Positions 8,362 to 53,615 of a DNA stretch of 64,000 nt are shown here, piece by piece. The stretch is from an uncultured Bacteroidota bacterium (GTDB lineage: Bacteria > Bacteroidota > Bacteroidia > B-17B0 > Aurantibacillaceae). The position numbers were made by a program, and so were the translations under genes. The notes beneath the pieces were generated by a model. The model was not told the DNA's origin and made no database searches. It saw nothing but the letters and a program-made list of their open reading frames with translations. Each line of letters opens with the position of its first letter. The stretch's first letter is position 1. Location of the stretch: the NCBI GenBank assembly GCA_903834765.1, contig CAILKE010000023.1, positions 1-64,000 of the forward strand, written 5' to 3'.

Positions 8362-10539
8362 TTACTTCTGTATACCTTCTAACCCAAAAATGAAGGCATA
8401 ATTGAGTGCCACGTCTTTTAAGTAATCAAAACGACCACTCGCGCCGCCATGCCCGAATTCCATATTTGTTTTTAGAAGTAATACATTTTTGTCTGTTTTC
8501 ATAGCTCGTAGTTTTGCAACCCACTTAGCGGGTTCAAAATATTGCACCTGACTGTCGTGTAAGCCAGTTGTGACTAGCATATTTGGGTAATTTTTATGTT
8601 CTACGTTTTCGTAGGGACTGTAACTTTTCATATAATCGTATGCATCTTTATTTTTTGGATTTCCCCATTCGTCAAATTCATTGGTTGTTAAAGGGATACT
8701 TTCGTCCAACATCGTATTTACAACATCTACAAACGGTACATGCGCTAAAACGCCGTGCCATAAATCAGGAGCCATATTTGCTATAGCGCCCATCAATAGT
8801 CCGCCAGCACTTCCACCTTGCGCATACAAATGTTCTTTAGAGGTGTATTTTTCTTTTACTAAAAATTCGCCACAATCAATAAAATCGGTAAAGGTGTTTT
8901 TCTTTTTCATCATTTTGCCATCTTCATACCATTGGCGACCTAAGTCTTCCCCGCCACGTATATGCGCAATGGCGTATACAAAACCACGATTTAATAAGCT
9001 TAAGCGAGTGCTATTAAAACTAGCATTTATACTATTTCCGTAACTACCGTAAGCATAAAGTAATAATGGCGCCTTACCATCTTTATTAAATCCTTTTTTA
9101 TATACTAAAGAGATTGGAACTTTAGTGCCATCTTTTGCTTTAGCATATAAACGTTCAGTTACGTAATTGGTAGCATCATATCCACCAAGTACTTCCTGTT
9201 GTTTCATTAGTTTTTTCTCTTTACTCACCATGTTATAATCGAAGGTAGAGTAGGGAGTAGTTAATGATGTGTAGCCATAACGAAAGCTCGTACTATTGTA
9301 TTCTGGGTTATTGCCCATAGAGGCTGAATAGGCTGCTTCTCCGAAGTTTAGATAATGCTCGGTGTTGTTAGTTAAATTTCTGAAACACATATTGATCAAA
9401 CCATCTTTACGTTCTTGAACCACTATAAAGTCTTTAAACTCAGTAACACCTTCAATTAAAACATCTGCTCGGTGCGGTATCAATTCTTTCCAATCACTCG
9501 CATTTGTTTTATTGAGAGGGCATTCCATTAATTTAAAATTGAGTGCGCCTTCTTTATTGGTAAATATTAAAAATTTATCAGCTAAAGGAGTCACGTCATA
9601 AATGACATCTTTCATACGAGGTTGAAACACCTTAAAGGCATCAGTTGGTTTGGATGCATCAATAAAATGTATTTCTGACGACATCGTTGCTTTAGATTCT
9701 ATTAAGATGTAATGATCGTTTTTACTTTTAGAAACACCTATGTAATTACTTTTGTCTTTCTCGTCATACACAGTCACATCAGTAGTTTCAGGCGTGCCTA
9801 ATTTATGACGTTTTATTTTTTCTGATAAAAGTGTTACTGGATTTTTAGATGTATAAAACAACGTTTGATTATCATTTGCCCAAACAGCATAGCCTTCGGT
9901 GTTAATGATGGCATCTTTTAGTATCTCACCCGTTTCAAGGTTTTTAATATGAATGGTATATTGTCTTCGGCTTACTTCATCAACACCAAACGCTATAAAT
10001 TTATTGTCTTCACTTACTTCAAAACCAGAAGCTGCATAATACGAATGTCCTTCAGCCATTTGATCGATGTCGAGTAGTAATTCTTCTTTAGCCTCTAAAC
10101 TTCCCTTTTTACGGCAGTATTTATAATATTGTTTACCGTCTTCGGTGCGTGTATAATAGTAATAGCCATTTTTAAAAACAGGAACACTTTCGTCTTTTTC
10201 CTTAATACGAGCTTTCATTTCGGTAAACAAATCTGCTTGCAGTTTATCGGTGCCACTCATTATTTTATCTAAATAGGTATTTTCTGCTTGGAGATAATCA
10301 ACTACTTTGGAGCTGTCTGGCCCTTTACCAAAATAATCATACATCCAGTAATAATTATCTAAAACGCTATCGCCATGGATAACGCGCCAATGTTCTTTTT
10401 TATCGGCTATTGGTGCGGGAGCCGCGTTGGGGTCTAGTTTCATAGGATGAATGTTTGAATAAATTTCAGCGGTATTGTCTTGTTTATCAATACAACTAAT
10501 TAGTAAAGTGAAAGGTAATAGTAAAAGTGTTTTTTTCAT
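8362..10539 (-). CDS. S9 family peptidase (oligopeptidase B-like), lipoprotein
   Basis: A 725-residue serine peptidase of the prolyl oligopeptidase clan. An N-terminal beta-propeller spans roughly residues 60-440 and an alpha/beta-hydrolase domain about 480-725. The nucleophile is in GGSAGG (Ser577), the acid in HDSQVQ (Asp662) and the base in FGHGGASGR (His697). HIRGGEDLGRQWYEDGK matches the oligopeptidase B branch, which cleaves short peptides after basic residues. The signal peptide ends in LLISC (Cys16), a lipobox, so it should be membrane-anchored outside the cytoplasm. The start codon overlaps the edge of a repeated leader element that is present in two tandem copies upstream. Confidence 0.9.
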   Translation of the reverse strand: MKKTLLLLPFTLLISCIDKQDNTAEIYSNIHPMKLDPNAAPAPIADKKEHWRVIHGDSVLDNYYWMYDYFGKGPDSSKVVDYLQAENTYLDKIMSGTDKLQADLFTEMKARIKEKDESVPVFKNGYYYYTRTEDGKQYYKYCRKKGSLEAKEELLLDIDQMAEGHSYYAASGFEVSEDNKFIAFGVDEVSRRQYTIHIKNLETGEILKDAIINTEGYAVWANDNQTLFYTSKNPVTLLSEKIKRHKLGTPETTDVTVYDEKDKSNYIGVSKSKNDHYILIESKATMSSEIHFIDASKPTDAFKVFQPRMKDVIYDVTPLADKFLIFTNKEGALNFKLMECPLNKTNASDWKELIPHRADVLIEGVTEFKDFIVVQERKDGLINMCFRNLTNNTEHYLNFGEAAYSASMGNNPEYNSTSFRYGYTSLTTPYSTFDYNMVSKEKKLMKQQEVLGGYDATNYVTERLYAKAKDGTKVPISLVYKKGFNKDGKAPLLLYAYGSYGNSINASFNSTRLSLLNRGFVYAIAHIRGGEDLGRQWYEDGKMMKKKNTFTDFIDCGEFLVKEKYTSKEHLYAQGGSAGGLLMGAIANMAPDLWHGVLAHVPFVDVVNTMLDESIPLTTNEFDEWGNPKNKDAYDYMKSYSPYENVEHKNYPNMLVTTGLHDSQVQYFEPAKWVAKLRAMKTDKNVLLLKTNMEFGHGGASGRFDYLKDVALNYAFIFGLEGIQK

Positions 10540-13687: not shown

Positions 13688-15046
13688 TTAAATAATAGTT
13701 TTTGGTTCTAACTTTTCCCCTTCCCATTTAGCAACAACAGCGCTTGCAACAGCATTACCAACTACGTTTGTGGCAGAACGACCCATATCTAAAATTTGAT
13801 CCACGGCTAGTAATAATAATAATCCTTCGCCTGGAATATGAAACATGCTTAACATCCCTGCAATTACAACTAATGAGGCGCGTGGCACACCTGCTACACC
13901 TTTACTAGTGATTAATAAAATCAACATCATTTTAATTTGATCCGCCATGCTCATATCAATGCCATACGATTGTGCAATAAATACCGTTGCAAAAGTCATA
14001 TACATAATAGACCCATCTAAATTAAAGGAGTAACCAAGCGGTAATACAAAGGAAACAATACGATTACTGATGCCAAATTTTTCAAGCTGTTCGATTGTTT
14101 TTGGCATGGCACTTTCGGAGCTTGCGGTGCTAAAAGCCAATAAAACAGGCTCTTTGACGTGAGAAAGTAATGATAGAAAGTTAATACGTAATACAAGGCA
14201 AATACTAAATAATACACCAAAAACGAAAAACAGTAAGCCGCCAAAAAAGCAAGCCATTAAATACATATAACTACTAAGTACCCCTAAGCCTTGTTGTATT
14301 ACAACGGCTGTGATAGCGCCAAATACGCCTATGGGTGCGAAATTCATGACGTAGTTTGTCACTTTAAACATAATGTGTGAGAGGCTATCCATAGCTCTGA
14401 TCATTGGTTTTCCTTGCTCACCAATGGATGCGGCTGCAACTCCAAAAAATAAGGCGAAAATAACAATCGGTAAAATTTCATTTTCGGCCATCACTCTGAT
14501 AATGCTATCAGGTACAACATGAGATATAAAACTAGAGGCAGTTTGGGTATTTGCTTTTACACCTGAATCAGCATTTTCTGCTGGCATATCGTATACAACT
14601 CTTTTACCAGGTTCAAAAATATTAACAATAACCAAACCCAGACTTAAAGAGAGTAGGGTTGCAAACGTAAAATAAATAATTGTTTTTCCACCTATGCGAC
14701 CTACTGATTTAAAATCACCTACTTTGGCTACGCCCATTACCAATACTGCTAAAACGAGCGGAGCAATGATCATTTTGATGAGGCGTAAAAAAATATCACT
14801 TAATATAGAATAATTAGATGCAACTTTTTTCTTAGCTTGTTTTAATTGTTCCTTTTCAACTTTCGCATAATGTTCAGTCAATTTTTTTTCAATTGTTACA
14901 TTACCTTTTGCTGATTGCTTAATATAGGATTGCTCAATTTTTACAGCATTATTAGTGATTGATTTATTGATTGCATAACCTAAGGATATACCAAAGATCA
15001 TAGCAATAATAATAATGGTAATGAGTCTGTTTTTTTTCTTGAACAT
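13688..15046 (-). CDS. Dicarboxylate/amino acid:cation symporter (SDF family)
   Basis: A 452-residue membrane transporter of the GltP/DctA family. The C-terminal transport core shows the serine-rich re-entrant loop STASSESAMPKTIEQL, the NLDG-containing segment SFNLDGSIMYMTFATVFIAQ and a second hairpin GVAGVPRASLVV. These are the substrate- and sodium-binding elements of the family. A long polar insertion between TM1 and TM2 (residues about 30-80, rich in Lys and Glu) is larger than in the Escherichia coli proteins. The substrate is glutamate/aspartate or a C4-dicarboxylate; the sequence does not decide. aroC ends 16 bp upstream, so the two may be one transcript. Confidence 0.9.
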   Translation of the reverse strand: MFKKKNRLITIIIIAMIFGISLGYAINKSITNNAVKIEQSYIKQSAKGNVTIEKKLTEHYAKVEKEQLKQAKKKVASNYSILSDIFLRLIKMIIAPLVLAVLVMGVAKVGDFKSVGRIGGKTIIYFTFATLLSLSLGLVIVNIFEPGKRVVYDMPAENADSGVKANTQTASSFISHVVPDSIIRVMAENEILPIVIFALFFGVAAASIGEQGKPMIRAMDSLSHIMFKVTNYVMNFAPIGVFGAITAVVIQQGLGVLSSYMYLMACFFGGLLFFVFGVLFSICLVLRINFLSLLSHVKEPVLLAFSTASSESAMPKTIEQLEKFGISNRIVSFVLPLGYSFNLDGSIMYMTFATVFIAQSYGIDMSMADQIKMMLILLITSKGVAGVPRASLVVIAGMLSMFHIPGEGLLLLLAVDQILDMGRSATNVVGNAVASAVVAKWEGEKLEPKTII

Positions 15047-40624: not shown

Positions 40625-41320
40625 ATGGCAGTATATAAATTTAAAATAGTTGTTGAAGACAACGAAGATATTTACAGAGAAATAGAAATTTTATCTGGAC
40701 AAACATTCGACGATTTTCATGCTTGTATACAAGAAGCTTTTGCTTTTGATAGCAAGCATGCAGCAGCCTTTTTTGTGAGCGATGATTATTGGCGCAAAGA
40801 CCAAGAAATTACCTTACGCAAAGAAGATTTAGAGTTAGATGCAGATGAAATTAGATTAGGGGTTTCTCCTAAAAAATTAATGTCGGCAACCAAAATTGCT
40901 AAATACATTGATAGCCCTCGTCAACGTTTTGTATATGTGTTTGATCCTGCTGTAAAATGGACCTTTTGCATAGAGCTTATGAAAATTTTGCCCGACAATC
41001 CCAAAGGCAAATACCCAAGTTGTGTGCGTTCCATAGGAAAATCACCAAGACAATATAAGCAAACCATTATGGCTGAAGGAGAAATGAGTTCTGATGTGGC
41101 AATGGCTACCATGCTTAATGATCCTGAACTAGATGAAAGCGAAATATATAAGGCAATAAAGAATGATACAAATGGAATAGATGAAGGAGATTTAAATCAT
41201 TTAGAAGGTGAAGAGGGTGAAGAAGTTGAAGAGATTGAGGAAGAAGACGAATTGCTTGATGAAGATGAGATGGATGAGGGCAAAGGTGATTACGGAATAG
41301 AACAAAGTGATGAGGATTAA
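40625..41320 (+). CDS. pRiA4b ORF-3-like protein with acidic tail
   Basis: A 231-residue protein. The first 150 residues resemble the pRiA4b ORF-3-like (IS1096 passenger-like) domain: YKFKIVVEDNEDIYREIEI, DDFHACIQEAFAFDSKHAAAFFVSDDYW and a tyrosine-rich strand RFVYVFDP. The last 60 residues are very acidic (EGEEGEEVEEIEEEDE), probably disordered. The fold is ubiquitin-like in related proteins and no activity is established. The position between a hydroxyacyl-CoA dehydrogenase and GAPDH gives no clue. It is not associated with any transposase here. Confidence 0.75.
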   Translation: MAVYKFKIVVEDNEDIYREIEILSGQTFDDFHACIQEAFAFDSKHAAAFFVSDDYWRKDQEITLRKEDLELDADEIRLGVSPKKLMSATKIAKYIDSPRQRFVYVFDPAVKWTFCIELMKILPDNPKGKYPSCVRSIGKSPRQYKQTIMAEGEMSSDVAMATMLNDPELDESEIYKAIKNDTNGIDEGDLNHLEGEEGEEVEEIEEEDELLDEDEMDEGKGDYGIEQSDED

Positions 41321-41408
41321 CGTATTATTTATTTTTTAATACCGAAGGATTGTAGAATTGCTTCGAATAACTAAAAACTAATTTCAAAAAACAAAAAACA
41401 GAAAACAA

Positions 41409-42866
41409 ATGGAAAAAGTAAAAAACACAGATTATCAAACTCAATTAAATGATTGGATCGAGCAAGAGAAAGCAGCTATTGACTTAATAGGAACGATTGG
41501 TAAATTATGGTTTGAAAAATCAATTGAATTGATTTTATTTAGAAATCAGTTAGTAGATAGAAGTGTGAGTGAAATTATGAACTTACATTTATATGCTAAA
41601 AACATTGTTAAGAAAACAATCTCTGTTCAAGATACTTTAGCCATAGCTCAAGAAATTAATCTATTGGATGTTTGTCCATCTCGCGTGGATATTGGAAAAT
41701 TAGCGTTTGAATTTCTTCAAGAAAAAGATAAACATGCATCAGTAACGGATTTTTTAAAACATAAGTTAGTTGATTTAATTGGAACAAAATCTACGATTAC
41801 CCCAAAAGATGTTGTATTGTATGGTTTCGGACGCATTGGTCGTTTAGCTGCTCGCGAGTTAATTTCTCAAGCAGGTAAAGGCGAGCAATTACGTTTACGT
41901 GCTATTGTTACTCGTGGAAATAGCGCCGATGATATTACCAAGCGTGCTGATTTATTAAGAACAGATTCAGTGCATGGAAATTTTCCAGGAACTGTTATCG
42001 AAGATTTAGAAAATAAGGCCTTAATCATTAATGGTCATACTGTTCACATGATTGATGCTAAAAATCCAGAAGATGTTGATTATACAGCTTATGGAATCAA
42101 TAACGCGTTGTTGATTGACAACACGGGTGTTTTTAGAGATGACGTAGAATTAAGCCGTCACTTAAAAGCAAAAGGAATTGATAAGGTATTATTAACAGCT
42201 CCAGCAAAAGGTAATGTGCCTAATGTGGTTCATGGTGTAAATCACGAAACGGTTGATGTAAAAACTCAACAAATATTTTCGGCAGCGTCTTGTACAACAA
42301 ATGCAATCATGCCAATACTATATGTAATTGATAAAGAATTAGGTATCGAAAAAGGACATATAGAAACGGTTCACTCTTATACCAATGATCAAAACTTATT
42401 AGATAACTATCATAAAAAATACCGTCGTGGACGCTCTGCAGCTTTAAACATGGTAATTACGGAGACAGGTGCTGAAAGTGCTTTGAAAAAAGTATTGCCA
42501 CACTTAGCAGGTAAATTTACAGCGAACTCGGTACGAGTACCAACACCTAATGTATCGTTAGCTATTCTTAATTTAAATATTAAGAAAGAAGTAACGCGTG
42601 ATGAGGTAAATGAAATCATTCGTAACTACGCTTTAAACGGTGCTTTGGTTGAGCAAATACAATACGCATTTAGTAACGAATTGGTTTCAACGGATATTGT
42701 TGGTAATCCTTGTCCATCTGTATTTGATAGTAATGCAACAATTATTTCTCCCGATAAAAAAAGTATAGTATTATATGTATGGTATGATAATGAATATGGA
42801 TATACTCGTCAGGTGATTCGTTTCTCGAAACACATTTCGGAAGTACGACGCGCTATTTATTACTAA
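41409..42866 (+). CDS. Glyceraldehyde-3-phosphate dehydrogenase, long form
   Basis: A 485-residue GAPDH with an extra N-terminal region of about 130 residues (helical, ending near KDVVLYGFGRIGRLAAREL, the Rossmann motif). The active-site Cys295 is in SAASCTTNAIMP, and the C-terminal part has NDQNLLDNYHKKYRRGRSAALNM and WYDNEYGYTRQVIRF. It interconverts glyceraldehyde-3-phosphate and 1,3-bisphosphoglycerate. Long forms of this kind occur in Bacteroidota beside the standard enzyme and may serve gluconeogenesis; that is inference. It is a single gene with its own terminator. Confidence 0.93.
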   Translation: MEKVKNTDYQTQLNDWIEQEKAAIDLIGTIGKLWFEKSIELILFRNQLVDRSVSEIMNLHLYAKNIVKKTISVQDTLAIAQEINLLDVCPSRVDIGKLAFEFLQEKDKHASVTDFLKHKLVDLIGTKSTITPKDVVLYGFGRIGRLAARELISQAGKGEQLRLRAIVTRGNSADDITKRADLLRTDSVHGNFPGTVIEDLENKALIINGHTVHMIDAKNPEDVDYTAYGINNALLIDNTGVFRDDVELSRHLKAKGIDKVLLTAPAKGNVPNVVHGVNHETVDVKTQQIFSAASCTTNAIMPILYVIDKELGIEKGHIETVHSYTNDQNLLDNYHKKYRRGRSAALNMVITETGAESALKKVLPHLAGKFTANSVRVPTPNVSLAILNLNIKKEVTRDEVNEIIRNYALNGALVEQIQYAFSNELVSTDIVGNPCPSVFDSNATIISPDKKSIVLYVWYDNEYGYTRQVIRFSKHISEVRRAIYY

Positions 42867-45903: not shown

Positions 45904-46013
45904 ATGTTTAAATTATTGTTTTTTTTTGTCATAACTTGTCCCGAACTTGATTCGGGATGGTATAGCCCATTTAATAATTGGTGTTAGTATTTCTAAAAAC
46001 AGTGCTATTTCAT
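45898..46013 (-). repeat. Leader element copy C, flanked by ATGAAA direct repeats
   Basis: On the minus strand it runs from ATGAAATAGC (ATGAAA at 46008-46013) to the ATGAAA that starts the lipoprotein gene (45898-45903), period 110 bp. It shares AAATAGC, CACCAATTATTAAA, GGGCTATACC and ACAATAATTTAAACAT with copies A and B at 10534-10727. Differences include a 19-nt palindrome at 45939-45957, in a different place from the palindrome of copy B. Confidence 0.8.
45939..45957. repeat. Palindrome TCCCGAActtgaTTCGGGA inside leader copy C
   Basis: Seven-bp arms with a 5-nt centre. It sits between GGCTATACC and GTTATGAC, where copy A has none. It resembles the TCCCGATAGCTATCGGGA palindrome only in the TCCCGA/TCGGGA ends. 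Confidence 0.6.
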
Positions 46014-46202
46014 CCTATTATTTTATGATGAAGATATAAAATACTATGATGCTGATACAAGAGTACGTTTTTATTTAGAGTATTTTAACGAATGACGGCA
46101 ATCCATCTTGATATTTATTTAGAGCTATGCAATTAGTTTTTGATTTAATCAAAGTAGGCATAACTAAATTAAGGTTGTTTATAAAGTTTACACAATCCAT
46201 AT

Positions 46203-46623
46203 TCAGTTATAGTAAACCAATTGACCACCAATGTAAATAGTGTTGTCCTTCAATGGAAAATGCCCGCACCAATTGTGGTAATATCATTTGCCACTTGTAA
46301 TGAACACCTAAACTATTGATGGATTAGCCTTACCCTATTTGTTGTTAAGCCTATAGCCACTGATGGTTTAGCAATAAACCACTGATAAACAAGTGTTAGG
46401 CTGCTAATGGGTAAACTCATTTCTATTGATGGATGAAGCTGTTTCCATGTATAGATAAACACCATGCCACGAGTAGGTAAGCCCTTACCCATTGATGGCA
46501 ATAGGTTTAGCCATTTGTGGATGCTGCGTATTATTTGTTAAAATAGATAGATATGCAGCATGTTATCATCACCACTTATCAAATTATAATAGCCACTTAT
46601 CGGTTAGTTACTGCCAACTGCAA
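46203..46623. repeat. Array of about 19 degenerate repeats with a 22-bp period
   Basis: A ten-base box of the form CYAYTGATGG starts at 46247, 46269, 46291, 46313, 46335, 46357, 46379, 46401, 46423, 46445, 46467, 46489 and 46511, i.e. exactly every 22 bp. Weaker boxes are in phase at 46203 and 46225. After a shifted stretch, boxes continue at 46572, 46593 and 46614. The box is nearly self-complementary (CCAY..RTGG), and the 12-bp spacers often contain TAAGCC or TAAAC. The period is not a multiple of three and no frame stays open, so it is not coding. The array ends about 85 bp before the ATG of the next gene. Confidence 0.85.
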
Positions 46624-46709
46624 ACTCTTTTAGCCTTTAACTTTTTTTGGGATGTGTTAACTAACTATTTTGGCACAAGGCTTGGAAAGTGTATTGTAAA
46701 ACAGAAATC

Positions 46710-47405
46710 ATGGCACACGCAAAGTATATCCCAACCTCCGACGCTAACAAAGTAATGTGGTTAAATAACTTCACTGTTAAGCTTAATTTGTATGCGAGTA
46801 CATTAGGTATTACTAATACAGAATTAAACAGTTTACAAAACGATACGGCACTCTTTAGTTACATTATTAACTTAATGGAACTGTATTATAACACCTATTT
46901 AAATTTGGCCGGTTACAAAAACATGATGAAGTTTGCCGAAGGAAAGCAACACTTGAGCTTTATACCCAAATTACCTCCTTTGCCATCCGAACCGACTTTG
47001 GTACCCGAAGGTATTTTTGACAGGGTGAGTAAAATGGTAAAACGTATTAAAGCAAGTACTATGTACAATGACAATATAGGTGCTGACCTTGGTATTATTG
47101 CACCTACCGAAAGTGTAGATGTAACAACGATGCAACCCAACATTAAAATTACCTTAAAGGTTGGTAAACCATTTTTGAAATGGACCAAAGGCAAGGCCGA
47201 AGCTTTAGATCTTTATGTAGATAGAAATGATGGACAAAGTTTTACTTACATCGGTCGATTTTTACATGCAGAGTATTTGGATGTAACAGATTTAGCTCCC
47301 GACAAAATATACGTCGAGTGGCATTATAAAGGCATATATGTGAGGGCTGATAAACAAGTTGGGTTGTATAGTAAAGTTAGCAGCGTTGATTTAAAAAAAA
47401 TATAA
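46710..47405 (+). CDS. Hypothetical protein downstream of the 22-bp array
   Basis: I start at ATG 46710 (MAHAKYIPTSDANKVMWLNN); seven further in-frame codons upstream look non-coding. The 231-residue product has a helical N-terminal half (about residues 10-100, WLNNFTVKLNLYASTLGI, FSYIINLMELYYNTYLNL), a proline-rich linker (IPKLPPLPSEPTLVPEG), another helical stretch and a C-terminal beta domain. The last, from about residue 145, has a fibronectin-III-like rhythm (FLKWTKGKAEALDLYVDRND ... VEWHYKGIYVRADKQVGLYS). No signal peptide. I have an impression of similar uncharacterised proteins in other Bacteroidota, but cannot name a family. The 22-bp array lies directly upstream. Confidence 0.75.
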   Translation: MAHAKYIPTSDANKVMWLNNFTVKLNLYASTLGITNTELNSLQNDTALFSYIINLMELYYNTYLNLAGYKNMMKFAEGKQHLSFIPKLPPLPSEPTLVPEGIFDRVSKMVKRIKASTMYNDNIGADLGIIAPTESVDVTTMQPNIKITLKVGKPFLKWTKGKAEALDLYVDRNDGQSFTYIGRFLHAEYLDVTDLAPDKIYVEWHYKGIYVRADKQVGLYSKVSSVDLKKI

Positions 47406-50708: not shown

Positions 50709-53615
50709 ATGGCACTTAGTTGGAACGAAATAAAAGATAGAGCATTACATTTCTCTAAAGAATGGGCTGACACTTCAAATGAAGAAGCTGACGCAAAACC
50801 TTTTTTAGTTGAGTTCTTTAATGTATTTGGCATAAGCAGTAAACGCGTTTCAACGTTTGAACATCGCGTAAAAAAACTTGATGAAAAAGATGGCTATATT
50901 GATTTGCTTTGGAAAGGAACCATTTTAATTGAAATGAAAAGTCGAGGTAAGAACCTTGACAAAGCCTACCAACAAGCAAAAGATTATTTACACGGACTTA
51001 AACAACACGAACTACCTAAGTATATTTTAGTTTCAGATTTTGAAACTTTTAAACTATATGATTTAGAGGAAGAAAAAACCATTGAATTTAAACTCAACGA
51101 CCTTGTAAATAATGTTCAACACTTTAGTTATATTTTAGGTTATCAAAAAAAGGTTTACAAAGAACAAGACCCTGCAAATATTAAAGCGGCGGAGTTGATG
51201 GGTAAACTTCACGATAGACTTGAAGATATTGGTTACACTGGGCATCCGTTAGAAGTTTACTTAGTGCGTATTTTATTTTGTTTGTTTGCCGAAGACACAA
51301 CCATTTTTAATAAACAACAGTTTCAAGATTTTATTGAACAACGCACCAACGAAGATGGCAGCGATTTAGCTTCTAAAATTCAAGAGCTTTTTCAAGTATT
51401 AAATACAGCTAAAGAAAATCGGTTTAAAAATTTGGACGAGCAATTAGCTGAGTTCCCTTATGTAAACGGTAAACTATTTGAAGAAATATTGCCTATGGCA
51501 AGTTTCGATAGCAAAATGCGAACGGCTTTGTTAGAGTGTTGTTATATTGATTGGAGTAAAATTTCTCCTGCCATATTTGGCTCCATGTTTCAAAGCGTCA
51601 TGAATCCAAAGGAACGCAGAAACCTTGGCGCACATTACACAAGCGAAACAAATATTTTAAAATTAATTAAACCTCTTTTTTTAGATGAACTTTGGAAAGA
51701 GTTTGAAAGCATTAAAGACAACAAAAACAAACTTCCTGAATTTCATAAAAAACTAAGTACATTAAAATTTTTGGATCCTGCCTGTGGTTGCGGTAATTTC
51801 TTAGTAATTACATATCGTGAATTACGTTTATTAGAATTAGAAGTTTTGCGTTCTTCACATAAATCAGGGCAAGGTGTTTTAGACGTTCGAGATATTATGT
51901 TGTTAGATGTTGATATGATGTGCGGTATTGAATACGAAGAGTTTCCTGCTCGTATTGCCGAAGTAGCTATGTGGTTAATTGACCACCAGATGAATATGCA
52001 AATAAGTAATGAGTTTGGTCAATACTTTGTGCGTTTGCCTTTGAAAAAAGCAGCTAAAATTGTTAATGGAAATGCCTTACAAATAGATTGGGGAACGTTA
52101 AAACATAAAAATACAGCCTTTGTTTATGCAGACGAATTAAATTATAAAGAAGTTAACGAACCTACAGAAACTTATGGAACACTTAATGTTATTACAAAAT
52201 CAGTATCTAAAGTTGATGAAAATAATGAGTTTCCTACAAGTAAAAAAACAGATAAAATTAAATATGATTATATAATTGGCAATCCTCCTTTCATAGGGAA
52301 GAAAGAACAGAAACCAGAACAGAAGGCAGATATGGAAAAAGTATTTGCAAATGCAAAAGGGACAGGCGTTTTAGATTATGTAACAGCGTGGTATATCAAA
52401 GCGGCTCAATATATTCAAAATACAAAAATAAAAGTGGCTTTTGTTTCTACAAACTCAATTTGTCAAGGTGAACAAGTTGGTCTTTTATGGAGTATAATGT
52501 TTAATAAATACAATATTAAAATTCATTTTGCTCACAGAACATTTAGTTGGAGAAATGAAGCAAAAGGAAATGCAGCTGTTCATTGTGTGATAGTTGGCTT
52601 CGCTAACTACGATACTGATAACAAGAGTATTTATGAATATGAAGATATTAAAGGTGAGCCTCATGAAATAAAAGTAAAAAACATAAATCCTTTCTTAGTT
52701 GAAGGTAAAGACATTACAGTTGAGAACAGAAAATCGCCACTATGTAAAGTTCCCGAAATGAATTATGGAAGTATGCCAATTGACGAAGGAAATTTGATTT
52801 TGACGGATGAAGAAAAAGAAGAAGCAGTAAAAAACGAACCTCAAATTAGTCTTGCAATTAAGAAATATACAGGTGGTGATGAGTTTATTAATAATAAAAA
52901 ACGTTGGTGTTTATGGTTGCAAAACATTGAACCTGCTATTTTAAAGAACTCAAAATTTATTATTGACCGAATAGAAAAAACAAAAAAATTTAGATTAAGT
53001 AGTAATAGAGAAGCCACAAAAAAGCTTGCTGAAAAACCAATGTTATTTGGCGAGATACGTCAACCAAATTCAAAATACATAATCATTCCAAAAGTTTCTT
53101 CCGAAAACAGAAAATATATACCAATTGGTATTTTGGAGCCGACAACAATAACAAGTGGTAGTGCGCTGATTATACCAAATGCGAGTTTATATATATTCGG
53201 GATAATGGCTTCATCGATGCAAATGGTTTGGATGAAAGCAACTTGTGGTAGAATGAAAAGTGATTTTCAATATTCAGCAAGTATAGTTTACAATAATTTC
53301 CCTTTTCCAGTAAACCCGAATGAAAAACAAATAAAAACAATTGAAGCTGCAGCGCAAAATATTTTTGATGCAAGGGCAGGATTTCCAAACAGCTCATTAG
53401 CTGATTTATACAATCCTTTAACGATGCCTCCAGCGTTGACAAAAGCACATAATGAATTAGATAAAGCCGTTGATTTAGCTTATCGTCCACAAGCATTTAC
53501 GAGTGAAGCTAAACGTATGGAATTTTTATTTGAGCTATACGAAAAATATACAGCGGATTTATTTACTAAAGAGAAAGTGAAGAAGAAATCTAAAAAAAAT
53601 AATAGTAATGAGTAA
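50709..53615 (+). CDS. MmeI-like type IIL restriction-modification enzyme
   Basis: A 968-residue single-chain restriction and modification protein. The N-terminal nuclease shows a PD-(D/E)xK core (Asp65 in GYIDLLWKG, Glu75 and Lys77 in ILIEMKSRG). A helical spacer follows, then a gamma-class adenine methyltransferase with motif I FLDPACGCGNF near residue 355 and motif IV NPPF near 525, and a target-recognition domain and helical C-terminus. Family members methylate one strand of their site and cut about 20 bp away. Both active sites look intact, so it may protect against phage. It overlaps the rhuM gene by 8 bp. Confidence 0.92.
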   Translation: MALSWNEIKDRALHFSKEWADTSNEEADAKPFLVEFFNVFGISSKRVSTFEHRVKKLDEKDGYIDLLWKGTILIEMKSRGKNLDKAYQQAKDYLHGLKQHELPKYILVSDFETFKLYDLEEEKTIEFKLNDLVNNVQHFSYILGYQKKVYKEQDPANIKAAELMGKLHDRLEDIGYTGHPLEVYLVRILFCLFAEDTTIFNKQQFQDFIEQRTNEDGSDLASKIQELFQVLNTAKENRFKNLDEQLAEFPYVNGKLFEEILPMASFDSKMRTALLECCYIDWSKISPAIFGSMFQSVMNPKERRNLGAHYTSETNILKLIKPLFLDELWKEFESIKDNKNKLPEFHKKLSTLKFLDPACGCGNFLVITYRELRLLELEVLRSSHKSGQGVLDVRDIMLLDVDMMCGIEYEEFPARIAEVAMWLIDHQMNMQISNEFGQYFVRLPLKKAAKIVNGNALQIDWGTLKHKNTAFVYADELNYKEVNEPTETYGTLNVITKSVSKVDENNEFPTSKKTDKIKYDYIIGNPPFIGKKEQKPEQKADMEKVFANAKGTGVLDYVTAWYIKAAQYIQNTKIKVAFVSTNSICQGEQVGLLWSIMFNKYNIKIHFAHRTFSWRNEAKGNAAVHCVIVGFANYDTDNKSIYEYEDIKGEPHEIKVKNINPFLVEGKDITVENRKSPLCKVPEMNYGSMPIDEGNLILTDEEKEEAVKNEPQISLAIKKYTGGDEFINNKKRWCLWLQNIEPAILKNSKFIIDRIEKTKKFRLSSNREATKKLAEKPMLFGEIRQPNSKYIIIPKVSSENRKYIPIGILEPTTITSGSALIIPNASLYIFGIMASSMQMVWMKATCGRMKSDFQYSASIVYNNFPFPVNPNEKQIKTIEAAAQNIFDARAGFPNSSLADLYNPLTMPPALTKAHNELDKAVDLAYRPQAFTSEAKRMEFLFELYEKYTADLFTKEKVKKKSKKNNSNE

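Follow-up and report, generated by a model that had tools for sequence, protein, structure and literature searches.

Several kinds of bacterial element join short repeats to one gene or promoter. Iteron arrays consist of directly repeated protein sites that share a face of the DNA, at intervals of about 21-22 bp; their sequence is replicon-specific, and the gene of the binding protein stands beside them. The type III toxin-antitoxin systems (ToxIN, CptIN, TenpIN) carry tandem repeats of locus-variable sequence directly upstream of one small protein gene; these repeats are RNA, with units of about 35 nt co-transcribed with the toxin. CRISPR arrays retain a regular period while the sequence changes between loci, and in REP/REPIN-RAYT systems short extragenic palindromes, dispersed and with one sequence genome-wide, are tied to one gene family. 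In sigma54 enhancer (UAS) clusters, a TGGCAC-N5-TTG promoter is preceded by 2-3 sites that are dyads or repeats. The array described below has one trait of each of these systems and lacks others that help to define them.

The window, which is the whole stretch of 64,000 nucleotides analysed here, comes from an uncultured Bacteroidota bacterium and contains an array at 46225..46532 with 14 units, each exactly 22 bp long, defined by autocorrelation and column conservation and assigned to neither strand. Over this span of about 310 bases a small two-fold-symmetric box recurs every 22. The fourteen 10-bp dyad boxes (46225..46520, likewise without strand) have the form C-Y-A-Y-T-N-R-T-R-G and start at 46225 + 22k, with k = 0 to 13. 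The original prediction had described thirteen boxes at 22-bp steps from 46247 to 46511, all of which we found, and weaker boxes in phase before them; one such box is present at 46225 (CCACCAATGT), in phase with the thirteen later ones, and the units at 46181 and 46203 have none. When the autocorrelation of 46203-46660 was compared with 1000 dinucleotide shuffles, the z-scores at lags 22, 44, 66 and 88 were 6.6, 5.7, 7.0 and 5.8, so that the proposed lag-22 check came out far above the shuffles; the off-period lag scoring next was 21, with z = 2.7. In a scan of the 64 kb in 300-bp windows, 46201-46500 at lag 22 gave the top score of all lags from 10 to 60.

Within the box, C1, Y2, R7 and T8 were found in 14/14 copies, Y4 and R9 in 13/14, A3 in 12/14 and G10 in 11/14. 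Pairwise column identity was 61% (0.607) for the boxes and 35% (0.346) for the 12-bp spacers, with a random expectation of 28%. The boxes are thus conserved and the spacers near random. The earlier view that selection acts on position is supported. The box had also been called a near dyad, and its dyad score was indeed high (z 4.1 against permuted columns, and 2.3 on the trimmed core). A period of 22 bp is not divisible by three and so breaks frame, and the array is crossed by no long open frame; coding repeats were therefore rejected and the array is non-coding, as predicted. No other non-coding array with a 12-49 bp period was found in 233 kb of window and flanks. A 384-kb sample of the same genome likewise gave no further non-coding array of 21/22 bp; its periodic hits were all in open frames. 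The window's only other 21-bp signal, at 41156-41499, is coding: a PRiA4_ORF3-like protein ends there in an acidic repeat with periods of 9, 18 and 21 bp.

On the upstream side, the orthologous flank in two genomes (G003 and G012) is alignable up to about 46095, indicating that the cassette side begins there. A segment of about 100 bp at 45904-46006, which includes the inverted repeat TCCCGAACTTGATTCGGGA, is missing from the orthologous flank of two relatives (L172, L173).

The region between array and gene had been read as a shifted continuation of the array to 46623. It is instead a separate promoter-proximal block, conserved in near relatives with quite different arrays. Where the array ends on the side of the gene there is a TTGTTAAAA element (46535..46543, + strand), which the alignment shows to be kept in most near relatives. 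An inverted repeat, ATGCTGCGTAT / ATATGCAGCAT with one mismatch (46521-46531 / 46551-46561), flanks this element and is not kept in relatives. Further downstream on the same strand (46572..46619), CCACTTAT at 46572 and 46593 and CCAACT at 46614 follow each other at 21-bp steps; these boxes are conserved in near relatives and are candidate activator sites. The putative sigma54-like promoter TTTTGGCACAAGGCTTGGAAA lies at 46668..46688 (+ strand) and is conserved in 12/19 near-relative loci aligned. In near relatives the order from the array end onwards is TTGTTAAAA, CCACTTAT boxes, a TTTAACTTTTTT stretch, TGTTAAA and TTTTGGCACA-N3-CTTGGAAA.

The published sigma54 consensus is TGGCACN5-7TTGCT (PMC12316311). 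In the element of the window (TTGGCAC) the -24 part is canonical and the N5 spacing right, and the -12 part is atypical, with TTGG for TTGC; among the aligned loci TGGCAC-N5-TTG is conserved and the -12 C is replaced by G or A. The window's genome encodes sigma54 (rpoN). It contains TTTGGCACANNNNTTG at only 2 sites, and the other one (L176 / L187, G000:C67:19668), upstream of an Asn/Gln-rich 309-aa ORF, is a possible second sigma54-type promoter. Distant members of the family have arrays and lack the promoter block, indicating that the block is a feature of this lineage.

The cassette gene (46710..47405, + strand) encodes a 231-aa protein of no known family, with a helical N-terminal domain (about 1-130) and an FnIII-like C-terminal domain (about 143-231). 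It had no match in Pfam, NCBIfam, PHROGs, PADLOC or PDB sequences. The AlphaFold model (mean pLDDT 82) has N-terminal helices at 11-32, 36-74, 102-115 and 121-127 and a C-terminal beta sandwich. Foldseek with the whole model matched single FnIII domains (TMt about 0.6-0.65, E down to about 5e-4), a viral structure library also gave FnIII matches, and in a profile search the family matched FnIII parts of large proteins; the predicted C-terminal half therefore appears to have the FnIII fold. The N-terminal domain alone (pLDDT 85) matched no solved fold, and neither domain resembles a known DNA-binding fold.

The gene is single-copy in the window's genome. Its family is present in 14/87 genomes of the host's family, in up to 4-5 copies, and distant members reach more than 10 copies in each of two genomes from other families, G255 and G349. 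We found no homologues in phages, plasmids or IMG/VR and rejected a phage or plasmid origin; a conserved neighbour gene was also rejected, as no other gene is common to the cassettes. About 3.3 kb downstream of the cassette in the window, 50709-53615 encodes a complete MmeI-type (type IIG) restriction enzyme-methyltransferase.

The earlier reading had suggested this gene as the partner of the array and the upstream regions of its homologues as the place to look. The homologues were found with an alignment of close members as query; a contig scan with the single sequence gave nothing. Periods of 15 to 29 were compared upstream of the gene in the 53 homologous loci for which 350 bp or more of upstream sequence was available; these loci are not all independent. 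The top period was 21 or 22 bp in 44 of them, against about 7 expected if periods were equally likely, which supports the partnership. Exceptions were L033, L039, L043 and L159 (contig edge), and L028, which gave a weak 42-bp signal only; a 21-bp signal downstream of the gene in L028 is a TPR-like coding repeat and was left out of the count. The signal of L024 was weak (0.45). In L025 the period is 43 bp (21+22), and this array, between 628 and 158 bp ahead of the gene, is based on a clear dyad, AAGTCAAA-N6-TTTGACTTA. At three loci (L068, L049 and L047/L153) the array lies downstream of the gene.

The unit consensus varies by locus. Units resembled each other more than in a column-permuted null only where the proteins were more than 85% identical, and in one further pair, L001/L004, whose units are both CCAYnnRTGG; even between proteins 60-85% identical the unit sequences were unrelated. 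Two paralogues in one genome, L007 and L019, with proteins 95.6% identical, have the distal part of the array in common and have expanded different units. Neighbouring units within an array are the most alike, and unit identity within arrays ranges from decayed to nearly perfect. One universal box was considered and rejected, because a half-site logo from 38 arrays gave weak tendencies only. As the unit sequence is locus-specific and the period universal, a genome search with a single box profile, which had also been proposed, could not retrieve the relatives.

The period is distributed differently. The 22-bp loci fall into a single clade of the protein tree (support 99/95; 100% of bootstrap trees). 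Two genomes, G007 and G016, each hold members inside and outside this clade, the outside member in G016 being L028, which has no clear 21-bp array. The 22-bp clade is single even within these two genomes, and the period therefore follows the cassette, not the host. A common period in the clade could be maintained by descent alone, without selection.

Eight further 21-bp arrays were found in random stretches of G255 and G349. Two of them lie directly upstream of genes of a second family (L208:13396-13867, gene 13761-14708; L212:10353-10868, gene 9529-10455), whose products have helical repeats (YSMxDAxL...MTRDxxEFxxRGV) plus an FnIII end. This family occurs in ten of the 395 Bacteroidota genomes searched, and a 21-bp array lies upstream in 19 of the 22 loci having upstream sequence (loci including L228-L250). 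The two families are remotely linked over both domains (hhalign probability 79, E 1.6e-5). Six 21-bp arrays of G255 and G349 have neither family adjacent (L208:4092-4685, L210:10599-11254, L211:17863-18450, L218:1-543, L219:624-1280 and L220:11629-12067); one adjoins an atpG-like gene, one is upstream of a 124-aa ORF, and those of L218 and L219, which contain long open frames, may be coding sequence.

Comparison with the described systems separates the array from each of them. An iteron origin or a centromere had been suggested and is not supported: many arrays can stand beside gene copies in one genome, and neither a Rep nor a Par gene is present. Unlike iterons, the arrays are chromosomal and have dyad-prone units and a helical + FnIII neighbour without a Pfam or NCBIfam family in place of a Rep initiator; they also number at least nine loci in G255, not one origin per replicon, and were not found in plasmids or phages. 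The units differ from type III antitoxin repeats in their 21/22-bp length, near relatives have a promoter-like block between the array and the gene, the array is downstream at some loci, and there is no strand-specific RNA signal; nor does the protein have a Pfam, NCBIfam or PADLOC match that would make it a ToxN, CptN or TenpN toxin. The degenerate 22-bp units contrast with the near-identical repeats and unique 30-bp spacers of CRISPR, and the neighbourhoods have no cas or other common gene. REPs belong to a dispersed palindrome family with a Y1 transposase, whereas these arrays are tandem, period-locked and locus-specific and have no transposase. Sigma54 UAS clusters have few sites, whereas here 10-20 locus-specific sites are found, and the arrays of distant relatives lack a sigma54-like element.

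We tentatively propose, with somewhat less than even confidence, that the array is a helically phased operator array, the cis half of an array + helical/FnIII gene cassette, bound by a cassette-specific factor. From the sequence we infer the binding, the identity of the binder and the regulation as follows. A dimeric cassette-specific protein, most likely the encoded 231-aa protein or an oligomer containing it, would occupy successive dyad boxes. With two helical turns from one dyad to the next, the bound dimers would line up on one face, as the original prediction had allowed, and could form a cooperative nucleoprotein rod or loop beside the promoter. In the lineage of the window, the array upstream of CCACTTAT and the sigma54-like block would set expression of the gene, probably by autoregulation. 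The box sequence would drift together with its reader, and unit duplication would spread changes within the array. The geometry of the oligomer would fix the spacing, so that each protein clade would pass its spacing on. If one host factor bound all the arrays, they would need to have a box in common; a cassette-specific binder, most simply the encoded protein, is therefore favoured.

Taken over all arrays, dyad symmetry is above chance: array consensuses surpassed their column-permuted copies in palindromic character, with a combined Z of 12.1 over 30 arrays and 11.4 over 45. Some arrays (L023, L144, L018) have little dyad symmetry. The dyads could instead be the stems of a transcribed repetitive RNA (tandem hairpins or a long fold-back duplex) which, like type III antitoxin RNAs, binds the encoded protein, the period being an RNA helix length. 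Evolution free in sequence and constant in structure is typical of RNA. The 46203-46560 sense RNA has a better predicted fold than its dinucleotide shuffles (z -3.5), and the same holds for several arrays against column-permuted copies (mean z about -2). The latter gain is, however, equal on both strands; at the dyad axes there is a mild excess of G-T and of A-C mismatches alike, neither dominating; and T-A never occurs at box positions 2 and 9. Pairing within units did not exceed pairing between units in the window (z 0.3 and 1.0), and its excess over all arrays was weak (Stouffer 3.3), strongest in L022, L026, L029, L032 and L034. Tests of cis/trans pairing, GT/AC asymmetry and column-permuted folding thus gave an RNA hairpin array no support here and indicated no strand. 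Rfam had no match in the window at gathering score. We consider the RNA reading unlikely, and the structured RNA leader of the original prediction fares no better, given wobble mismatches without strand preference, no clear compensation here and a promoter-like block in between. The dyads, mismatches and strand-equal folding seem rather to fit duplex-DNA sites of a symmetric binder; within-unit compensation in L022, L026 and L032 could reflect RNA or template-switch repair of palindromes.

An operator array could also serve host regulators that differ by locus, such as a response regulator or a sigma54 activator, as an enhancer, with the protein only a regulated product. Such activators usually have direct repeats with a two-turn spacing as their sites, and the sigma54-like promoter, the CCACTTAT boxes and rpoN are in place. 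The conserved CCACTTAT boxes already look like activator sites, though, while the array differs per locus; paired CCACTTAT boxes with 21-bp spacing and at most one mismatch occur in only a few other places in the window's genome; and the period tracks the protein clade rather than the host, with some arrays downstream of the gene. This explanation is a shade less probable than the RNA one. Ranking slightly lower again is a functionless minisatellite turned over by slippage, tolerated beside genes, with a period set by a two-turn mutational or repair footprint. The fast turnover of units, the likeness of adjacent ones, the range from decayed to nearly perfect arrays and the orphan arrays would all follow, but the conserved boxes between decayed spacers in the window, the dyad symmetry, the tie to one protein superfamily across Bacteroidota and the lack of such an array elsewhere in the 384 kb sampled would not. 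Phased curved DNA, in which bends every 21-22 bp add up, would explain a constant two-turn period with free sequence; it is very improbable, since the units have no 10.5-bp A/T periodicity (z 0.0), which leaves phased curvature unsupported, and a bend needs no conserved dyad boxes.

The main weakness of the operator reading is a protein without a recognisable DNA-binding fold, together with the arrays that are downstream or orphaned. Units already unrelated at 60-85% protein identity, and different even between L007 and L019, change fast for the specificity of a protein to follow. The downstream arrays (L068, L049, L047/L153) are not predicted by a pure promoter-operator role, and orphan arrays without a family gene in G255 and G349 also count against it. 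A structural or RNA role of the array is possible.

No description of such arrays was found in the open-access literature by exact-term search, and an earlier report is possible. Alignment, Rfam and motif searches cannot see an element in which the period is conserved and the sequence is not, and a widespread module can thus stay undescribed. The findings point to such a gene-plus-array module across Bacteroidota, in which spacing matters more than sequence. It may represent, as we suggest with reserve, a class of two-part modules in which a helical+FnIII superfamily is combined with locus-private arrays that have a locked 21/22-bp period, passed down within the clade; the protein or its oligomer would read spacing and dyad geometry, and self-specific pairs could coexist in one genome. 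The arrays offer a first handle on a helical+FnIII superfamily without annotation. If each protein pairs with its own array, the cassettes would be a natural set of orthogonal DNA-protein pairs, and recognition by spacing would be a new principle in the gene control or genome organisation of Bacteroidota.
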